The notes below the pieces were generated by a model. It saw nothing but the letters and a program-made list of their open reading frames with translations, did not search any database and had not been told where the DNA came from. A program made the translations under genes and the position numbers. 64,000 nt of DNA, from the NCBI RefSeq assembly GCF_000308755.1, contig NZ_BAGF01000030.1, forward strand, positions 62,001-126,000. Reading direction: 5' to 3'. Source of the DNA: Nocardia pneumoniae NBRC 100136 (lineage in GTDB: Bacteria; Actinomycetota; Actinomycetes; Mycobacteriales; Mycobacteriaceae). Of the stretch, positions 433-53,257 are shown one piece after another (position 1 is the stretch's first letter; every line of letters begins with the position of its first letter).

Positions 433-2051
433 GTCCTTCTGTCGCAGCCCAAGCCAGCGAGGCGGACGAGCGGTACCGCGCCGCCGCGTTCGTGAAGCGG
501 TCGATCAATAAGGTCTTCCCGACGCATTGGTCGTTCCTGCTCGGTGAGATCGCGCTCTACAGCTTCATCATCCTGCTGCTGTCGGGTGTGTATCTGACCC
601 TGTTCTTCGATCCGTCGATGAGCGAGGTCGTCTACAACGGCGCCTACCAGCCGCTGCGTGGTGTCACCATGTCGCGGGCCTACGAGACGGCGCTCAACAT
701 CTCCTTCGAGGTGCGCGGCGGTCTGTTCGTCCGCCAGGTGCACCACTGGGCGGCGCTGCTGTTCGCGGCGTCGATCATCATCCATCTGTTCCGGATCTTC
801 TTCACCGGCGCGTTCCGCAAGCCGCGTGAGGCGAACTGGGTGATCGGTTCGCTGCTGCTGATCCTGGCGATGTTCGAGGGCTTCTTCGGCTACTCGCTGC
901 CGGATGACCTGCTCTCGGGTACCGGTCTGCGGGCCGCGTTCTCCGGCATCACCATCTCGATTCCGATCATCGGCACGTGGCTGCACTGGCTGATGTTCGG
1001 CGGTGACTTCCCCGGCGACATCATCATTCCGCGCCTGTACATCGCGCACGTGCTGCTGTTCCCCGGGATCATCCTGGCGCTGATCGCGGCGCATGTGGCG
1101 TTGGTGTGGTACCAGAAGCACACTCAGTTCCCCGGCCCGGGCCGCACCGAGAACAACGTGGTGGGCGCCCGCATCGTGCCGGTGTTCGCCGCGGACCAGG
1201 GCGCGTTCTTCGCCTTCACCCTCGGCATCGTCGGCATCATGGGCGGCGTCTTCCAGATCAACCCGATCTGGAACCTGGGCCCGTACAACCCCTCGCAGGT
1301 GTCGGCCGGTTCCCAGCCGGACTTCTACATGATGTGGACCGACGGCATGGCGCGGTTGATGCCGCCGTGGGAGCTGTATCTGGGCCGCTACACCGTGCCC
1401 GCGGTGTTCTGGGTGGCACTGATCATGGGCTTGGTGTTCACGGTGCTGATCGCCTACCCGTGGATCGAGAAGCGCCTCACCGGCGACAAGGCCGCGCACC
1501 ACAACCTGCTGCAACGCCCGCGTGACGTGCCGGTCCGCACCGCGATCGGCGCGATGGCGATCGCGTTCTACGTGGTGCTGACCCTGTCCTGCGTCAACGA
1601 CATCGTCGCGCTGAAGTTCGACATCTCGCTGAACGCGACCACGTGGATCGGCCGCATCGGCCTGCTCGTCGCACCGCCGATCGCGTACTTCCTCACCTAC
1701 CGGTTCTGCATCGGCTTGCAGCGCAGCGACCGCGCGGTGCTCGAGCACGGCATCGAGACCGGTGTGATCAAGCGTCTGCCGCACGGCGAGTACATCGAGG
1801 TGCACCAGCCGCTGGGCCCGGTGGACGAGCACGGTCACCCGATTCCGCTGGCGTATCAGGGCGCTCCGGTCCCGAAGAAGATGAGCAAGCTGGGCGCGGC
1901 AGGCAAGCCGGGCACCGGCAGCTTCCTGCGGCCGGACCCGCAGGAGGAAAGCGACCGCCACTTCGAGATCGAGCACGAGGAAGAGCACAAGCAGCTGAAG
2001 GTGCTGCAGCAGGCTCAAGAGGCGGCGTCGAACGGCAAGCACGGCCACTGA
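429..2051 (+). CDS. qcrB: Cytochrome bc1 complex cytochrome b subunit
   Basis: Membrane-integral di-haem cytochrome b of the bcc complex, holding the quinol oxidation and reduction sites. The 540-aa product fits the long actinobacterial QcrB type. It shows the usual hydrophobic helices, His-containing helix segments such as VHHWAALLF, and an extended charged cytoplasmic tail after the last helix (about residue 440 onward). The start ATG overlaps the qcrA stop by four bases. A strong bidirectional hairpin directly downstream ends the qcr operon. In mycolata this complex forms a supercomplex with the aa3 oxidase; QcrB is the target of imidazopyridine-type inhibitors (known for the family). Confidence 0.97.
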
Positions 2052-25147: not shown

Positions 25148-26145
25148 CGGGTCGCTCCGCGCGGCGCGCCGGAGCCGATCTCGGCGACTTCCCGCAGCTT
25201 CTGCCACGCGCGCCGCAACGGCGACGGCGGCGGAGTGCGGTGCGCGCCTTTGGCGTAGTGGCGCTCGATGTAGTACTGCGCCACCGAGAGCACGGTGGTG
25301 AGCACGATGTACCAGACCGTCGCGACCATCAGCAGCGGCACCACCCGCCCGTTGCGGCCGTAGATCACCTGCACCTGATAGAACAGCTCCGCGATCGCCA
25401 TCACCGACACGATCGAGGTGCCCTTGAACAGGCTGATCACCTCGTTGGTCGCGTTCGGCAGGATCGAGCGCATCGCCTGCGGGGCCACCACGGTGCGGAA
25501 CTGCCGCAGCCGCGGAATCCCCAGCGCGGCGGCCGCTTCCAGCTGGCCCGCGTCGACCGAGATGAACCCGGCGCGGATGATTTCGGCCGAATACGCCGCC
25601 TGGTGCAGGGCCAGCCCGATCACCGCGGCGGTGAAGCCGCTGATCACGCCGTTCACCTCGAAGGTGAACAGCGCCGGGCCGAACGGGATGCCCACCGAGA
25701 GCGTCTGGTACAGGTAGGCGATGTTGAACCAGAACAGCAGCTGCACGATCAACGGGATGGAACGGAACGCCCAGATGTAGACCCACGAGATCACCCGCAG
25801 CACCGGATTGTTCGACAGCCGGGCGACCGCGAGCGCGGTACCGAGCAGGAACCCCAGCGCGGTGCCCCAGACGGTGAGCTCCATGGTCACCCGCAATGCC
25901 GCCAGCACCGATTTCGCCGTGACGTACCGCGCGAACGTCGGCCAGTCCCAGCCGGGATTGGTGGCGAGGCCGTGCGCGAACTGGGCGAGCAGGACCAGAG
26001 CGACGGCGCTCACCACCCATCGCCAGGGGTGGCAGGTCTTGGCCACGGTGGGCGTTGCAACCCCTGCGGTCGCGGCAGCGGGCGTGCCGATCGGGGCCGG
26101 ATCGCCGAGCGGGGCGGCATCGGGTGCCGCGGCGGACGCGGTCAT
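25144..26145 (-). CDS. Amino-acid ABC transporter permease
   Basis: 333 aa membrane subunit of the HisM/GlnP family. About 45 N-terminal Ala/Pro-rich residues precede the first helix, then a His/Glu/Gln/Arg/opine-type permease domain (TMELTVWGTALGFLLGTALA) with the EAA loop QLEAAAALGIPRLRQFRTVV. It is the first full gene of the twelve-gene operon. Its ATG (26145) overlaps the stop of a 34-codon reading frame that begins right behind the riboswitch, so its translation is probably coupled to that leader frame. Confidence 0.92.
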   Translation of the reverse strand: MTASAAAPDAAPLGDPAPIGTPAAATAGVATPTVAKTCHPWRWVVSAVALVLLAQFAHGLATNPGWDWPTFARYVTAKSVLAALRVTMELTVWGTALGFLLGTALAVARLSNNPVLRVISWVYIWAFRSIPLIVQLLFWFNIAYLYQTLSVGIPFGPALFTFEVNGVISGFTAAVIGLALHQAAYSAEIIRAGFISVDAGQLEAAAALGIPRLRQFRTVVAPQAMRSILPNATNEVISLFKGTSIVSVMAIAELFYQVQVIYGRNGRVVPLLMVATVWYIVLTTVLSVAQYYIERHYAKGAHRTPPPSPLRRAWQKLREVAEIGSGAPRGATR

Positions 26146-26246
26146 GCCCGTACCTCTCCGGTGCCCGGTTCCGGCATGACCGCGAACACGGCTGTGTCCA
26201 TTGCCCGCTCGCCGCGCTCACTCCGTGACGGGTCCTCGATGATCAC
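26142..26246 (-). CDS. 34-codon leader reading frame derived from the SERSER repeat
   Basis: GTG 26246 has a GGAGG site seven bases upstream and reads 34 codons to a TGA that overlaps the permease ATG (ATGA). The inner residues RSERGERAMDTAVFAVMPEP match the repeat units before sepF ([19 protein letters not shown]) in protein and in DNA. The original ribosome-binding site therefore serves the repeat frame, and the permease depends on re-initiation. No function for the peptide is claimed; it may simply be a tolerated insertion that preserves translation. Confidence 0.6.
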   Translation of the reverse strand: MIIEDPSRSERGERAMDTAVFAVMPEPGTGEVRA

Positions 26247-26256
26247 TTCGGTTCCT

Positions 26257-26344
26257 CCATCGGTCCCGGCGGAAGCACCCGCACCCGGTGACCGGGGGGT
26301 TGCTGCGACGTCGACGAGCCAGGTCTCTCGGTCGCTCTGGATGG
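26257..26344 (-). promoter_or_regulatory. SAM riboswitch aptamer of the S-box (SAM-I/SAM-IV) clan
   Basis: Read on the minus strand: P1 is CCATC (26344-26340) paired with GATGG (26261-26257). AGAG follows P1; P2 is GCGAC/GTCGC with an inner CGAG/CTCG stem holding ACCTGG; the conserved AGCAACC leads into a G/C-rich P3; GTGCTTCC matches the S-box J3/4 GUGC(UAA)UUCC core. No clear P4 is seen, which fits the SAM-IV or SAM-I/IV variants of actinobacteria. The 3' arm of P1 touches the GGAGG ribosome-binding site, so translational control is likely. The leader upstream to about 26460 holds another G/C stem. Confidence 0.8.
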
Positions 26345-26711
26345 TTGGTGCCGACCCCGCGTCAGCCGATGTCAGGGTCGAGCCGAATCATGATGCCCAG
26401 CAAGCGAACCCCTGGACAAGAGAAGTAATCACCGTGAGCGTAGACCTTGTCGCGCCCGGATTCATCGGATCTTTGTAGTAGCCAGGAATGCGCTGCCGGA
26501 TCGAGCCCGGCGCGTCATCGCGCACCGGCGCGTGGCGCGGGACAGCGGTGGTCCGGTGAGCATACGGCCTTGCCCGTCAAGGGTCGATCAACGCCGTCGA
26601 TCCGATCCGGGCAAACTGGACTGCTCTGAAATTGCTGGGCTCAATCTCAGCTGTTGAGTGCGTTTGCCGGAGTACTGTGCCCCTCGATCGTTCCGCCGAT
26701 GAGGAGGTTTC

Positions 26712-29714: not shown

Positions 29715-30785
29715 TCAGGGCCGCGCGCGAGCCAGGACAACCAGCAAGGGCGCTCCGAGCACACCCATCCCGACCAGGCCGTAACCCGCGGACGACGGCA
29801 GGCCGAGGAACGCGGCATGGGCCAGCGCCGACCCCAGCCAGGTCCACAGGAACAGCGCGACCGGCACGGCGAGCGCGCTCGCGCGGTCGCTTCGCGGCGT
29901 ACGGACGGGATCGGGCGCCGCGCGTTCCCAGGCCGCCAGCAATCCCGCCATCACGAGTGCGACACCGAACCAACCCAGATAGTTGGTGTACGGAATCTGC
30001 GCCAGCCCGGGCAGGCCGGAGCTGGTGTCGCACCAGGTCCACTGCCCGTCGGCGACCATTTGCGGATCCAGGAACAGATCCCAGCCCACCGCGCCGAGCG
30101 CGGTCAGCGCGATCCGCGACGCCGTGCGTCGCGACACCATCCCGGCCACCACCCACACCGGATACATCCCGCCGGTCCAGGCCAGCGGAACGATCAACGG
30201 CACGTCCAGCAAAGCCGGACCGAGCCGGTCGCTCGCATAGGCATAGCAGCCGAACGGCAGGCCCGTCGCCGTACCGATCACCTCGGCCAGCAGCCCGACG
30301 CCGGAGACGAGCACCAGAAAGCCGACCGCATACCGAATTCCCCTGGTCGCGGTCGCATGCGCCAGCGCGGCACCGGCGGAGAGCAGCACGACCGCGGCCG
30401 TGATCCGGTCGCGCGCGCCGCCCGCGGTGAGCGGATAACCGATCTGCGCGACAACCGTCAGCGCGACGAGGACCACCGGAAAGAGAAATCGCGGCGAACG
30501 GAACCACTGATGCTCGGCGGTTCTTGCGGGATGTTCGCGTGTCGGTTCCGTCCGGCCCGCCGCCGCGCGTGGTGAGTGGTCCGGGTGTGTCATCGTCGGA
30601 GCCAGCGTGGATGTCGGTGCTGGTTCTGCGGGGGATGTCGATTCGGTTCGGTGTGCCGCCGCGCGCGGTGAGTCGTCCAGGTGTGTCATCGTCCGAACCG
30701 CCGTGGATGTCGGTGCTGGTTCTGCGGGGCGTGTCGATTCGGTTCGGTGTGCCGCCGCGCGCGGTGAGTAGTCCGGTTGGGTCAT
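29715..30785 (-). CDS. cruF: CruF-like carotenoid hydratase with repeat-derived N-terminus
   Basis: Multi-pass membrane protein of the DUF422/carotenoid biosynthesis family, which adds water to a lycopene-type end group in bacterioruberin and myxol routes. Core from about residue 90: helices plus PFGCYAYASDRLGP, WTGGMYPVWVV, GWDLFLDPQMV and TNYLGWFG, all typical. ATG 30785 overlaps the stop of the CrtO-like gene (ATGA). The first 64 residues are two copies of a 32-residue repeat (MTQPDYSPRAAAHRTEST...), each beginning with Met, and a third partial copy leads into the core. Translation could thus also start at 30689 or 30593. Confidence 0.8.
   Translation of the reverse strand: MTQPDYSPRAAAHRTESTRPAEPAPTSTAVRTMTHLDDSPRAAAHRTESTSPAEPAPTSTLAPTMTHPDHSPRAAAGRTEPTREHPARTAEHQWFRSPRFLFPVVLVALTVVAQIGYPLTAGGARDRITAAVVLLSAGAALAHATATRGIRYAVGFLVLVSGVGLLAEVIGTATGLPFGCYAYASDRLGPALLDVPLIVPLAWTGGMYPVWVVAGMVSRRTASRIALTALGAVGWDLFLDPQMVADGQWTWCDTSSGLPGLAQIPYTNYLGWFGVALVMAGLLAAWERAAPDPVRTPRSDRASALAVPVALFLWTWLGSALAHAAFLGLPSSAGYGLVGMGVLGAPLLVVLARARP
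30525..30785 (-). repeat. 96-bp tandem repeat spanning the cruF start codon
   Basis: Copies begin at the ATGs at 30785, 30689 and 30593 (period exactly 96 bases); the third copy decays after about 65 bases. The period is a multiple of three, so the frame stays open and each copy restores an ATG followed by TCHPD/TQPDY-like codons and SPRAAA. Differences between copies are single substitutions, so the duplication is recent. Confidence 0.85.
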
Positions 30786-32347
30786 TGTCCGAACCACCGC
30801 GGACGCCAGTACCGACGCAGGTCGCGCAGGGCGAGCCGGGCGGCCGTGCGGCCGCTGGCCCCGGAGACGCCGCCACCGGGATGCGTGGACGCGCCGGTCA
30901 GATACAGGCCCGGCGCGCCGGGTACCCGCTGCCGGGACAGTTCCGGCAGCGGACGCCACAGCATCATCTGGTCCAGCGACATCTCCACGTGCATGACGTT
31001 GCCGCCGACGAGCCCGAGTTCGCGCTCCAGGTCCACCGGCGTCTGCACGTGCCTGCGCAGCACCGCGTCGGCGAAACCGGGTGCGTAGGAGTCGACTTCG
31101 GCGATGATCCGGTCGCCCTCCCGCTGCGCGAGCGCGGCCCAGTCGCGGCCGTCCGCCAGCCGGTACGGATGCCACTGCGCCCACAGCGACAGCTGGTGCT
31201 CACCCGGCGGCGCGATGGTCGGGTCCAGCGCGGAGAAGCTCATCGCCAGCACCACCGGCCGTGGCGGCAGCTCCCCGGCCAGCGCCGCGCCGTGCGCGCG
31301 GCGCAGTTGCGCTCGATCGGACACCAGGAATTGCAGGCCCCGAGCGGAGTCATCGGCCGGGCTGCCCGGGTAGCGGGGCAGGGCCGCGGCGGCGACCCGC
31401 ACCACCATCCCGATACCGGGACCGACCCGGATGCGCCGCCGCCAGTCGTCCAGCCGCGCGGCGTCGAATCCGCCGTCGCGCAGCAGATCCAGCGTGGTCA
31501 GCACGTGCGCGCCCGCGATAACGATGTCGGCGCGCAGTTCTCGGCCCGACGTAGTGTGCACCCGCCAGCCGTCGCCGACGCGCCGCAGGGCGGTCACCGC
31601 GTCGCCCGCGTGCACCACTCCGCCGTCGGATCGCAGCCGCGCCACCAGGGCCTCGGTCAGTGCGCCGCTGCCGCCCACCGCGCGGCCCGGCGGCAACGTG
31701 TGCAGGAGCGCGGCGAAGCCGACCATCGGCGCCGTGCCGGGCTCCGACATCGGCGGCCCGGACTGCGCGCCGAACCAGGCCAGCGACGCTTTCAGCCGTT
31801 CGTCCTCGAAGCAGGTGTCCAGCAATGCGTCTCCGGATTGCAGGAACTCCCGCGACAGCGCGCTTCCGCCGTCGTCCGCGTCAAGCCCCCAGAACGACCG
31901 CACCAACCTGCCCGGCGTCGGCCCGCCACCGAAGGCCCGCATCACGCGAGCGCTGCGCGGCCCCCACACCTGGACGAACCGCCGATACGCCGCCGCGTCC
32001 CGCGGACCGCAGGCCGCCGCGATCGACGCGCACGTCGCGTCCAGGTCGCGGTGGAACACGATGGCCGGGCGGCCGGCATGGGCGGGCGTGAATCCCCATG
32101 GGTCGCAGTCGATGTAGCGCAGCCCGAAGCGGTCGAGCTCCAGCTCCTCGATGATGCCGGTATGGCGGATCATGATGTGCGCCGACGAGCCGCGATCGAC
32201 CCGATGGCCGGGGAAGCGCTCCACCGTCGACACCGCGCCGCCGAGCACGTCGTCGCGTTCGAGCACCTCGACCGCGTGCCCGGCGCGGGCCAGGTAGCAC
32301 GCGGCGACCAGGGCGTTGTGCCCCGAGCCGACGACGACTACCGACAC
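30782..32347 (-). CDS. CrtO/PYROXD2-like FAD-dependent carotenoid oxidoreductase
   Basis: 521 aa flavoprotein of the CrtI/CrtO superfamily. The N-terminal Rossmann motif VVVVGSGHNALVAACYLARA and VLGGAVSTVERFPG are characteristic of the CrtO/PYROXD2 branch, and the C-terminal LYLTGASTHPGGGVSGASGR is the second FAD-binding signature. CrtO enzymes ketolate or desaturate carotenes; the actual step here is unknown. GTG 32347 has GAGGG upstream and lies seven bases after the GNAT stop; the stop overlaps the CruF-like start, so the three genes form one unit. Confidence 0.83.
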   Translation of the reverse strand: MSVVVVGSGHNALVAACYLARAGHAVEVLERDDVLGGAVSTVERFPGHRVDRGSSAHIMIRHTGIIEELELDRFGLRYIDCDPWGFTPAHAGRPAIVFHRDLDATCASIAAACGPRDAAAYRRFVQVWGPRSARVMRAFGGGPTPGRLVRSFWGLDADDGGSALSREFLQSGDALLDTCFEDERLKASLAWFGAQSGPPMSEPGTAPMVGFAALLHTLPPGRAVGGSGALTEALVARLRSDGGVVHAGDAVTALRRVGDGWRVHTTSGRELRADIVIAGAHVLTTLDLLRDGGFDAARLDDWRRRIRVGPGIGMVVRVAAAALPRYPGSPADDSARGLQFLVSDRAQLRRAHGAALAGELPPRPVVLAMSFSALDPTIAPPGEHQLSLWAQWHPYRLADGRDWAALAQREGDRIIAEVDSYAPGFADAVLRRHVQTPVDLERELGLVGGNVMHVEMSLDQMMLWRPLPELSRQRVPGAPGLYLTGASTHPGGGVSGASGRTAARLALRDLRRYWRPRWFGQ

Positions 32348-34964: not shown

Positions 34965-35164
34965 CCGCGGGCGAACGAGTGCCGCGCGGTCTCTGCCCGG
35001 ACGCGGACCCTGACGTACTTCCCCGACGCCAGGTGCCGAGGTTCGGTCAGAGACCACGGGGCATTCGTATCCGTATCGAGAGCACTCGGTATCAGAATTC
35101 ACTGTGTAGCAAGGCGACCCGTGTGCGGTGCGCGACGACGCGAGGCAGACTCCGGGAGGTCGAG

Positions 35165-52901: not shown

Positions 52902-53008
52902 CAAAGAAACCTCATCAGTCACATTCGACACATATGCTGGGAACTGACGAGGGCTGAGCAAGACTTCAACACCCGGCCGCCACCGGGGCCGAAGGAAGGT
53001 CGACCAGA

Positions 53009-53253
53009 ATGAGCGAGCGCAGCGAGCGAGTAATCGACGCAGCCACCATCGTGGTCATGAGCGCGCCTGACAGCGAGGTGCGGTCCGCAGTGAGTGAGCG
53101 CAGCGAGCGAATCATCGACACAGCCACGAGCGTGGTCATGAGCGCTCCGAGCGGCAGCGAGGTGCGGTCCGCAGTGAGTGAGCGCAGCGAGCGAATCATC
53201 GACACAGCCACGAGCGTGGTCATGAGCGCTCCGAGCGGCAGCGAGGTGCGCTC
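53009..53253 (+). repeat. Three tandem copies of the SERSER repeat before sepF
   Basis: Units start at 53009, 53090 and 53174. Units two and three are identical over almost all 84 bases; unit one has a three-base deletion and several changes. Each contains GAGCGCAGCGAGCGA near its start and GTGGTCATGAGCGC in the middle. A diverged single copy on the minus strand at about 26142-26226 precedes the salvage operon. Confidence 0.9.
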
Positions 53254-53257
53254 ATGA
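53009..53257 (+). CDS. 82-codon tandem-repeat leader frame coupled to sepF
   Basis: ATG 53009 has the strong AAGGAAGG site (52992-52999) that would otherwise serve sepF, and reads 82 codons made of three near-identical units ([20 protein letters not shown] and GSEVRSA). The TGA overlaps the sepF ATG (ATGA). The units have lengths 81, 84 and 80-84 bases, so the frame never breaks. The frame is translatable by all signs, but the peptide is unlike any domain I know; it may act only to pass ribosomes to sepF. Confidence 0.6.

Follow-up and report, generated by a model that had tools for sequence, protein, structure and literature searches.

The window, i.e., the whole analyzed stretch of 64,000 nucleotides, contains two loci at which copies of the same repeat of about 80 bp directly precede a gene (Table 1). 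On the minus strand, a SAM-I riboswitch is followed by the gene of an ABC transporter permease, and on the plus strand three tandem units precede the cell division gene sepF. The 3' strand of riboswitch helix P1 (GATGG) leads directly into a GGAGG motif, and the 3' end of the riboswitch reads GATGGAGG. In the minimum-energy fold of the riboswitch segment P1 pairs with the GG of GGAGG; the folding energy of this segment was ordinary in comparison with shuffled sequences (z 0.31).

The initial annotation had claimed that the GGAGG at P1 does not serve the permease directly, but a frame of 34 codons. This was confirmed, as a GTG is located 7 nt downstream of the motif, and the frame opened by it is translated to VIIEDPSRSERGERAMDTAVFAVMPEPGTGEVRA. 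Its TGA and the permease ATG (26145-26143) overlap as ATGA, which was also as claimed. Codons 1-8 (GTG to CGG) lie outside the repeat. The CGG is found at the place where other copies carry ATG or GTG, and thus the window copy has lost the start of its own. The remainder of the frame was said to be built from the same repeat as the units in front of sepF, and the repeat model matched both places, with E-values of 5.0e-15, 2.0e-18 and 2.1e-19 for the three sepF units. The model is based on sequence only and was built from 20 copies, including the window copy. The window copy and two sepF units are rows of alignment A1 and all three sepF units are among the source places of the model, and therefore the E-values of these copies are not independent of it.

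Table 1. Features of the riboswitch-permease locus and of the sepF locus (positions in the window).
Feature	Position	Strand	Details	Basis
SAM-I riboswitch aptamer (RF00162)	26254..26347	-	50.7 bits, gathering score 44.4	Rfam
GGAGG, Shine-Dalgarno-like	26254..26258	-	7 nt upstream of the GTG of the leader frame	sequence
Leader frame, 34 codons	26142..26246	-	GTG (26246) to TGA (26144-26142)	sequence
Copy of the ~80-bp repeat	26142..26223	-	65.7 bits, E 3.8e-17	repeat model, alignment A1
GAGG at the conserved place of the repeat	26153..26156	-	7 nt before the permease ATG	sequence
ABC transporter permease, PF00528	25144..26145	-	333 aa, first gene after the riboswitch	ORF and Pfam
AGGAAGG	52993-52999	+	ahead of the ATG of the sepF-repeat frame	sequence
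Three repeat units (81 + 84 + 80 bp)	53009..53257 (units 53009-53253)	+	one 82-codon frame ending in ATGA on sepF	
sepF, PF04472	53254..54036	+	260 aa from the ATG at 53254	Pfam

Two further elements were seen in the window. An mraW RNA (RF01746, 63.7 bits) is located at 34971-35076 on the plus strand, and a 96-nt tandem repeat occurs three times at 30540-30827 on the plus strand (70-84% identity to the reference copy), which by eye is unrelated to the repeat of about 80 bp.

Position, frame and GAGG of the repeat

A search of the 7.59-Mb genome with the repeat model yielded 84 matches at E ≤ 0.001 and 101 at E ≤ 0.1, and most units had a length of 65-84 bp. The motif AGYGAGCGCAGCGAGCGA, with at most one mismatch, was found at 25 places of the genome, versus one for the reversed control. 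Sixty stretches were fetched around the matches, which cover 96 of the 101; the other five have no fetched locus. Copies that are up to 94% alike (about 93%) sit within unrelated flanks. The repeat resembles a known group, the mycobacterial interspersed repetitive units (MIRUs), which reportedly were described by Supply et al. 1997.

In the MIRU description given in PMC12548453 these are short, apparently mobile repeats at start codons with an internal ORF that is coupled to the gene at -4 nt, and this coupling probably limits the effect on expression. A size of 40-100 bp, 41 locations in M. tuberculosis H37Rv, and variable tandem arrays ending at the start codon are described in PMC2734929. 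A case from PMC4128351 is a 77-nt 5' UTR that consists entirely of a class I MIRU, while the M. marinum orthologue is leaderless. The first MIRU feature, a short repeat of about 40-100 bp at many genomic places, was also found here.

The same was true for the second feature, the location at start codons in the direction of the gene. Among 65 units that are the last of their array, 51 end in DTGA and 14 do not. In 41 of the 51 cases an ORF with a minimum of 100 aa and the best coding score of all six frames begins at the terminal start, versus 643 of 3217 further DTGA sites of this DNA; ten of the 51 failed this test. The exact empty sites described below fall on the same start codons. At the other end, 13 of 37 first units are located on the stop codon of a long upstream coding frame, versus 107 of 3282 control sites (own genome). 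The downstream genes have little in common. Downstream ORFs with a length of 60 aa or more numbered 44; 30 were scanned, and 26 of these contained a Pfam family (E ≤ 1e-5). The families are mutually unrelated (SepF, GlutR, HemD, TruA, RsfS, a lyase, transporters, and others), and the roles include cell division, haem synthesis, tRNA modification, transport, and regulation.

The length of the units follows the reading frame. Sixty-six units of the own genome have a readable end; 45 of them have a length of 3n+2 (44 open), 14 of 3n, five of 3n+1, and two are without a start codon. At least two of the five 3n+1 units (the window copy and L070:108842) were so counted only via an internal GTG that had been picked as start; an earlier mod-3 count of the units had been 43/16/5. 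At the prevailing length of 3n+2, the open mini-frame and the next start have 4 nt in common, and thus 45 of the 66 units have the arrangement of the third MIRU feature, an internal ORF at -4 nt to the gene, from which a coupling is predicted. The 14 units of 3n length are all open and continue in frame into the following unit or gene, and are fusions and not -4 couplings. Lengths of 68, 74, 77, 80, 83, and 86 bp dominate, and other lengths are rare. Among the matches listed for 50 other genomes, 205 full-length matches were measurable, and 199 of these had a length of 3n+2; 65 of the 205 differ from 80 bp in length, and 59 of them are 3n+2 as well. These counts take only matches that span model position 1, 2 or 5 to 84, and leave out most of the sepF units in other genomes that are fused in frame. 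The initial annotation had proposed an element at ATGA-type starts that leaves translation intact, and had argued that copies out of frame or at random positions relative to start codons would speak against it. The positions (41/51 versus 643/3217) and the lengths (199/205 among the matches listed) are in agreement with the proposal, i.e., the repeat was found at ATGA or GTGA starts and is mostly 3n+2 long.

Of 77 unit ends, 65 carry a GAGG exactly 7 nt upstream of the terminal start, versus 18 of 3562 other RTGA sites. When any Shine-Dalgarno-like tetramer at a distance of 4-11 nt was counted, the values were 71 of 77 and 361 of 3562, respectively. With a GAGG at this distance, re-initiation need not be the sole route of entry. 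The former claim that the whole permease operon depends on re-initiation was therefore not upheld, because the window copy also has its GAGG 7 nt before the permease start and initiation there may be partly independent.

The peptide encoded by the repeat is not conserved, and changes did not accumulate preferentially at third codon positions (53/36/26 and 53/74/55). The repeat has two subfamilies, in which the same stretch is read in shifted frames that both close at 3n+2. The avoidance of stop codons was weak in one subfamily (1/12 versus 2.9 expected, P 0.18) and moderate in the other (0/16 versus 3.4 expected, P 0.013); this simulation was run for each subfamily and replaces a mixed-subfamily simulation (1/28 versus 7.0). 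Judged from the letters of the copies, the conserved property is the open frame that meets the start, not the peptide.

Filled and empty sites in related genomes

The initial annotation had called for a comparison of orthologous loci with regard to presence or absence of the repeat, and exact filled and empty sites were found at both sepF and hemA. The sepF start was compared in 33 genomes of the genus, own genome included, leaving out G013 (contig end) as well as G014 and G031 (incomplete). It was filled in 14 genomes and exactly empty in 19. The empty sites contain AGGAAGG, about 6-8 nt, and then ATGAGCACG, and the filled sites contain the identical AGGAAGG, followed by ATGAGCGAGCG (repeat) and then by the sepF ATG. 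The inserts have lengths of 80-245 bp and form an open chain into sepF in all 14 cases, 13 via ATGA and one via TGATG. The fourth MIRU feature, tandem arrays with a variable number of units, was thus also found at sepF in these 14 genomes, with variation between species, not strains.

On a tree of the flanks seven changes between filled and empty are needed at sepF, six of which are forced by well-supported branches; G006, G022, and G025 are well-supported close relatives with an empty site. All 23 sepF units were closest to a sepF unit of another genome, the outside comparison for the other genomes being the units of the own genome only. Since the sepF units are most alike among themselves, one old insertion followed by repeated exact loss is just as likely as repeated insertion.

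The second example is the start of hemA. Twenty-nine loci were read (G025 was unreadable), of which 22 were empty and seven filled. The inserts are 68, 74, 77, 77, 77, 74, and 38 bp long, and all are 3n+2 and open. Even without an insert, the hemA start and a long frame upstream of it overlap as ATGA (own frame best-coding in 27 of 29), and it is within this pre-existing overlap that the repeat is located. The shortest insert, in G021 (L309), is a remnant of the repeat at the start codon that is still 3n+2 and open. The position on start codons, the frame length, the GAGG, and the exact filled and empty sites can be read directly from the aligned loci.

The third example is the permease locus itself. 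An Rfam scan of 16 permease loci (own and 15 relatives) revealed a SAM-I riboswitch in 12, a SAM-IV riboswitch in one, and none in three, and SAM-I was above the gathering score in 11 of the 15 loci of relatives. As in the known SAM-I riboswitches (RF00162) of this arrangement, P1 adjoins the ribosome-binding site, and CCATCC and CGATGGAGGA (P1, GGAGG) are invariant in all 12 aligned SAM-I loci. The difference lies in what the GGAGG faces. In eight of the 12 loci (L157-L160, L162-L165) the permease ATG follows the GGAGG after 7-12 nt, without a repeat, whereas in the own genome, G006, G016, and G007 the GGAGG faces the start of a leader at 7 nt. In G016 and G007 this start is the GTG of a 28-codon leader (peptides VIISAAHGTRWGRRHIDQCKVTSASCRG and VISSAVRSTRWGRRHIDQCKVTAQSCRG), and about 110 nt downstream GAAGGA and the repeat (80 and 71 bp, script-called units) precede the ATGA of the permease. 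G006, the permease of which is 90% identical, has no repeat, and its GTG opens a frame of seven codons that is ATGA-coupled to the permease. In the window genome, GTGATCAT is followed directly by GAGGACCCGTCA and then by the repeat.

The repeat alone did not create the leader, because G006 has the leader start without a repeat. The initial annotation had assumed that the repeat was inserted between the ribosome-binding site of the riboswitch and the permease; this describes the final arrangement correctly, but the loci in G006, G016, and G007 do not agree with it as the order of events. We infer that a deletion in the shared line of the own genome and G006 brought the leader start directly next to the former ribosome-binding region of the permease. 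G006 would then have lost the repeat exactly, and the ATG of the window repeat would have decayed to CGG after the leader GTG had come in frame.

Two observations concern leaders at relatives of this operon. The 28-codon frame directly after the GGAGG in G016 and G007 (L155, L156) is conserved, contains RWGRRHIDQCKVT and two Cys codons, and has the appearance of a sulfur-related leader peptide. In another family, the orthologous permease (L166, about 1112-1350, plus strand) has the SAM-IV riboswitch (104.8 bits), which is followed by a short frame ending in CRRHVDLLRVSSALCLAAL; its type resembles the 28-codon leader.

A proposed start-codon element, its alternatives and its spread

Very probably, the repeat is an element that inserts at start codons and keeps the genes translated via a coupled mini-frame, and the window copy became the body of a riboswitch leader. 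The element would be mobile or once-mobile, without a gene of its own, and would insert at ATGA or GTGA starts. After insertion, the old ribosome-binding site of the gene, or an upstream gene that overlaps the start with its stop codon, would feed the start codon of the element. The mini-frame (3n+2) would be open, its TGA would overlap the ATG of the gene by 4 nt, and the GAGG 7 nt before the ATG would allow the gene to be started by the ribosome that has just terminated or by a newly arriving one. With the start of the element, the open mini-frame, and the GAGG/ATGA the gene would therefore stay translated. Mobility, translation, and coupling are features that we infer from the arrangement of the copies. 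The first base of both element ends was identical at 18 of 22 single sites (Fisher P 0.011), which might suggest a target duplication at insertion sites; subfamily ancestry is a possible alternative cause.

At the window locus, a repeat copy, the deletion deduced from the relatives, and the loss of the own start would together have yielded the main part of a leader frame with its start at the riboswitch GGAGG. SAM would close P1 and part of the GGAGG, i.e., the ribosome-binding site of the leader, and would reach the permease through coupling. Without SAM, ribosomes would translate the 34 codons, stop on the ATGA, and restart on the permease, aided by the GAGG. The extent to which the permease is under riboswitch control would depend on the strength of this GAGG alone.

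Alternatively, the 34-codon frame could be a dedicated regulatory leader peptide, such as an attenuator that reads amino acids, and its likeness to the repeat could be secondary. The well-conserved 28-codon leader with two Cys codons in G016 and G007 indicates that leaders are used at this operon. However, the window frame retains only the start of that leader and the remainder is a repeat common to genes of other functions, the repeat peptides have no codon-position bias in their conservation, and G006 has just seven codons at this place, so a dedicated leader is improbable. It is considerably less probable still that the repeat spreads as a functional block at the level of DNA or RNA (promoter, RNA processing, or binding site) for which translation is irrelevant. 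Its 5' half does have a strong DNA-level conservation across families of the class (alignment A3), but such a function does not predict the frame rule seen in the dominant lengths (68, 74, 77, 80, 83, and 86 bp), the hemA inserts have four different lengths that are all 3n+2, and the sites are start codons on one strand. Mis-called gene starts, with the repeats as ordinary N-terminal extensions, hardly come into consideration, because, although 14 of 66 own units continue without a frame change into the unit or gene that follows, 45 end in TGA on the next start, repeat-free orthologues begin at the same ATG behind their own ribosome-binding site, and the Pfam domain often begins at most 10 residues after that start.

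The repeat works like a MIRU in every tested feature, namely size, start-codon sites, the ORF at -4 nt to the gene, and variable tandem arrays; the likeness is one of behavior. Two differences were observed. The repeat is found in organisms other than the sequenced MIRU hosts, namely in a genus whose genomes have 0 to 107 copies, and it has a conserved GAGG 7 nt before the gene start, which is not mentioned in the relevant passages of PMC12548453, PMC2734929, and PMC4128351. The initial annotation had deduced an element that inserts at ATGA-type starts; elements of this kind are already described as MIRUs in the relevant part of PMC12548453.

Rickettsia palindromic elements also stay translatable after insertion. 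They insert inside reading frames, while the repeat described here is located at start codons.

The distribution of the repeat was analyzed at several levels. Thirty of 34 genomes of the genus (G014 and G031 left out) have matches at E ≤ 0.001, with 0 to 107 per genome. At E ≤ 1e-6, the order had matches in 56 of 249 genomes (15 of 68 genera), and the class had matches in 27 of 296 genomes (13 of 114 sampled genera). In g23, the largest sister genus, nine of 148 genomes have weak matches (best E 7.5e-6). The two controls, Nocardioides kribbensis and an Actinomycetospora MAG, had no matches, and the repeat was not found in plasmid records with one query made of two units. Literature searches on the letters of the repeat, its peptide, or such repeats in Nocardia or Micromonospora yielded nothing relevant.

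On balance, we lean towards the view that MIRUs are one branch of class-wide start-codon elements. These would be portable couplers consisting of a start codon, an open mini-frame, GAGG, and ATGA, with around 100 copies in some actinobacteria, which insert into ATGA overlaps, are exactly lost again, and can be recruited as riboswitch-controlled leaders. The same start that is filled or empty in related species, with differing lengths and the 3n+2 rule kept, is a broad comparative test of the MIRU idea, and the range of such elements extends far beyond the organisms treated in the cited MIRU passages. The start-codon annotation of many genes is affected, e.g., sepF and hemA, and the permease locus would be a natural case of a riboswitch that acts on a gene through a putatively translated mini-frame.

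A last observation concerns three copies of the own genome (L072, L077, L067), which have another shared stretch directly after the last unit (ATGAGCGGTCAGGCC.. and ..CAGGCCCGGAGGCGGCAGCG..). No long ORF begins there, and as the extra stretch is common to the three copies, a composite unit may exist.
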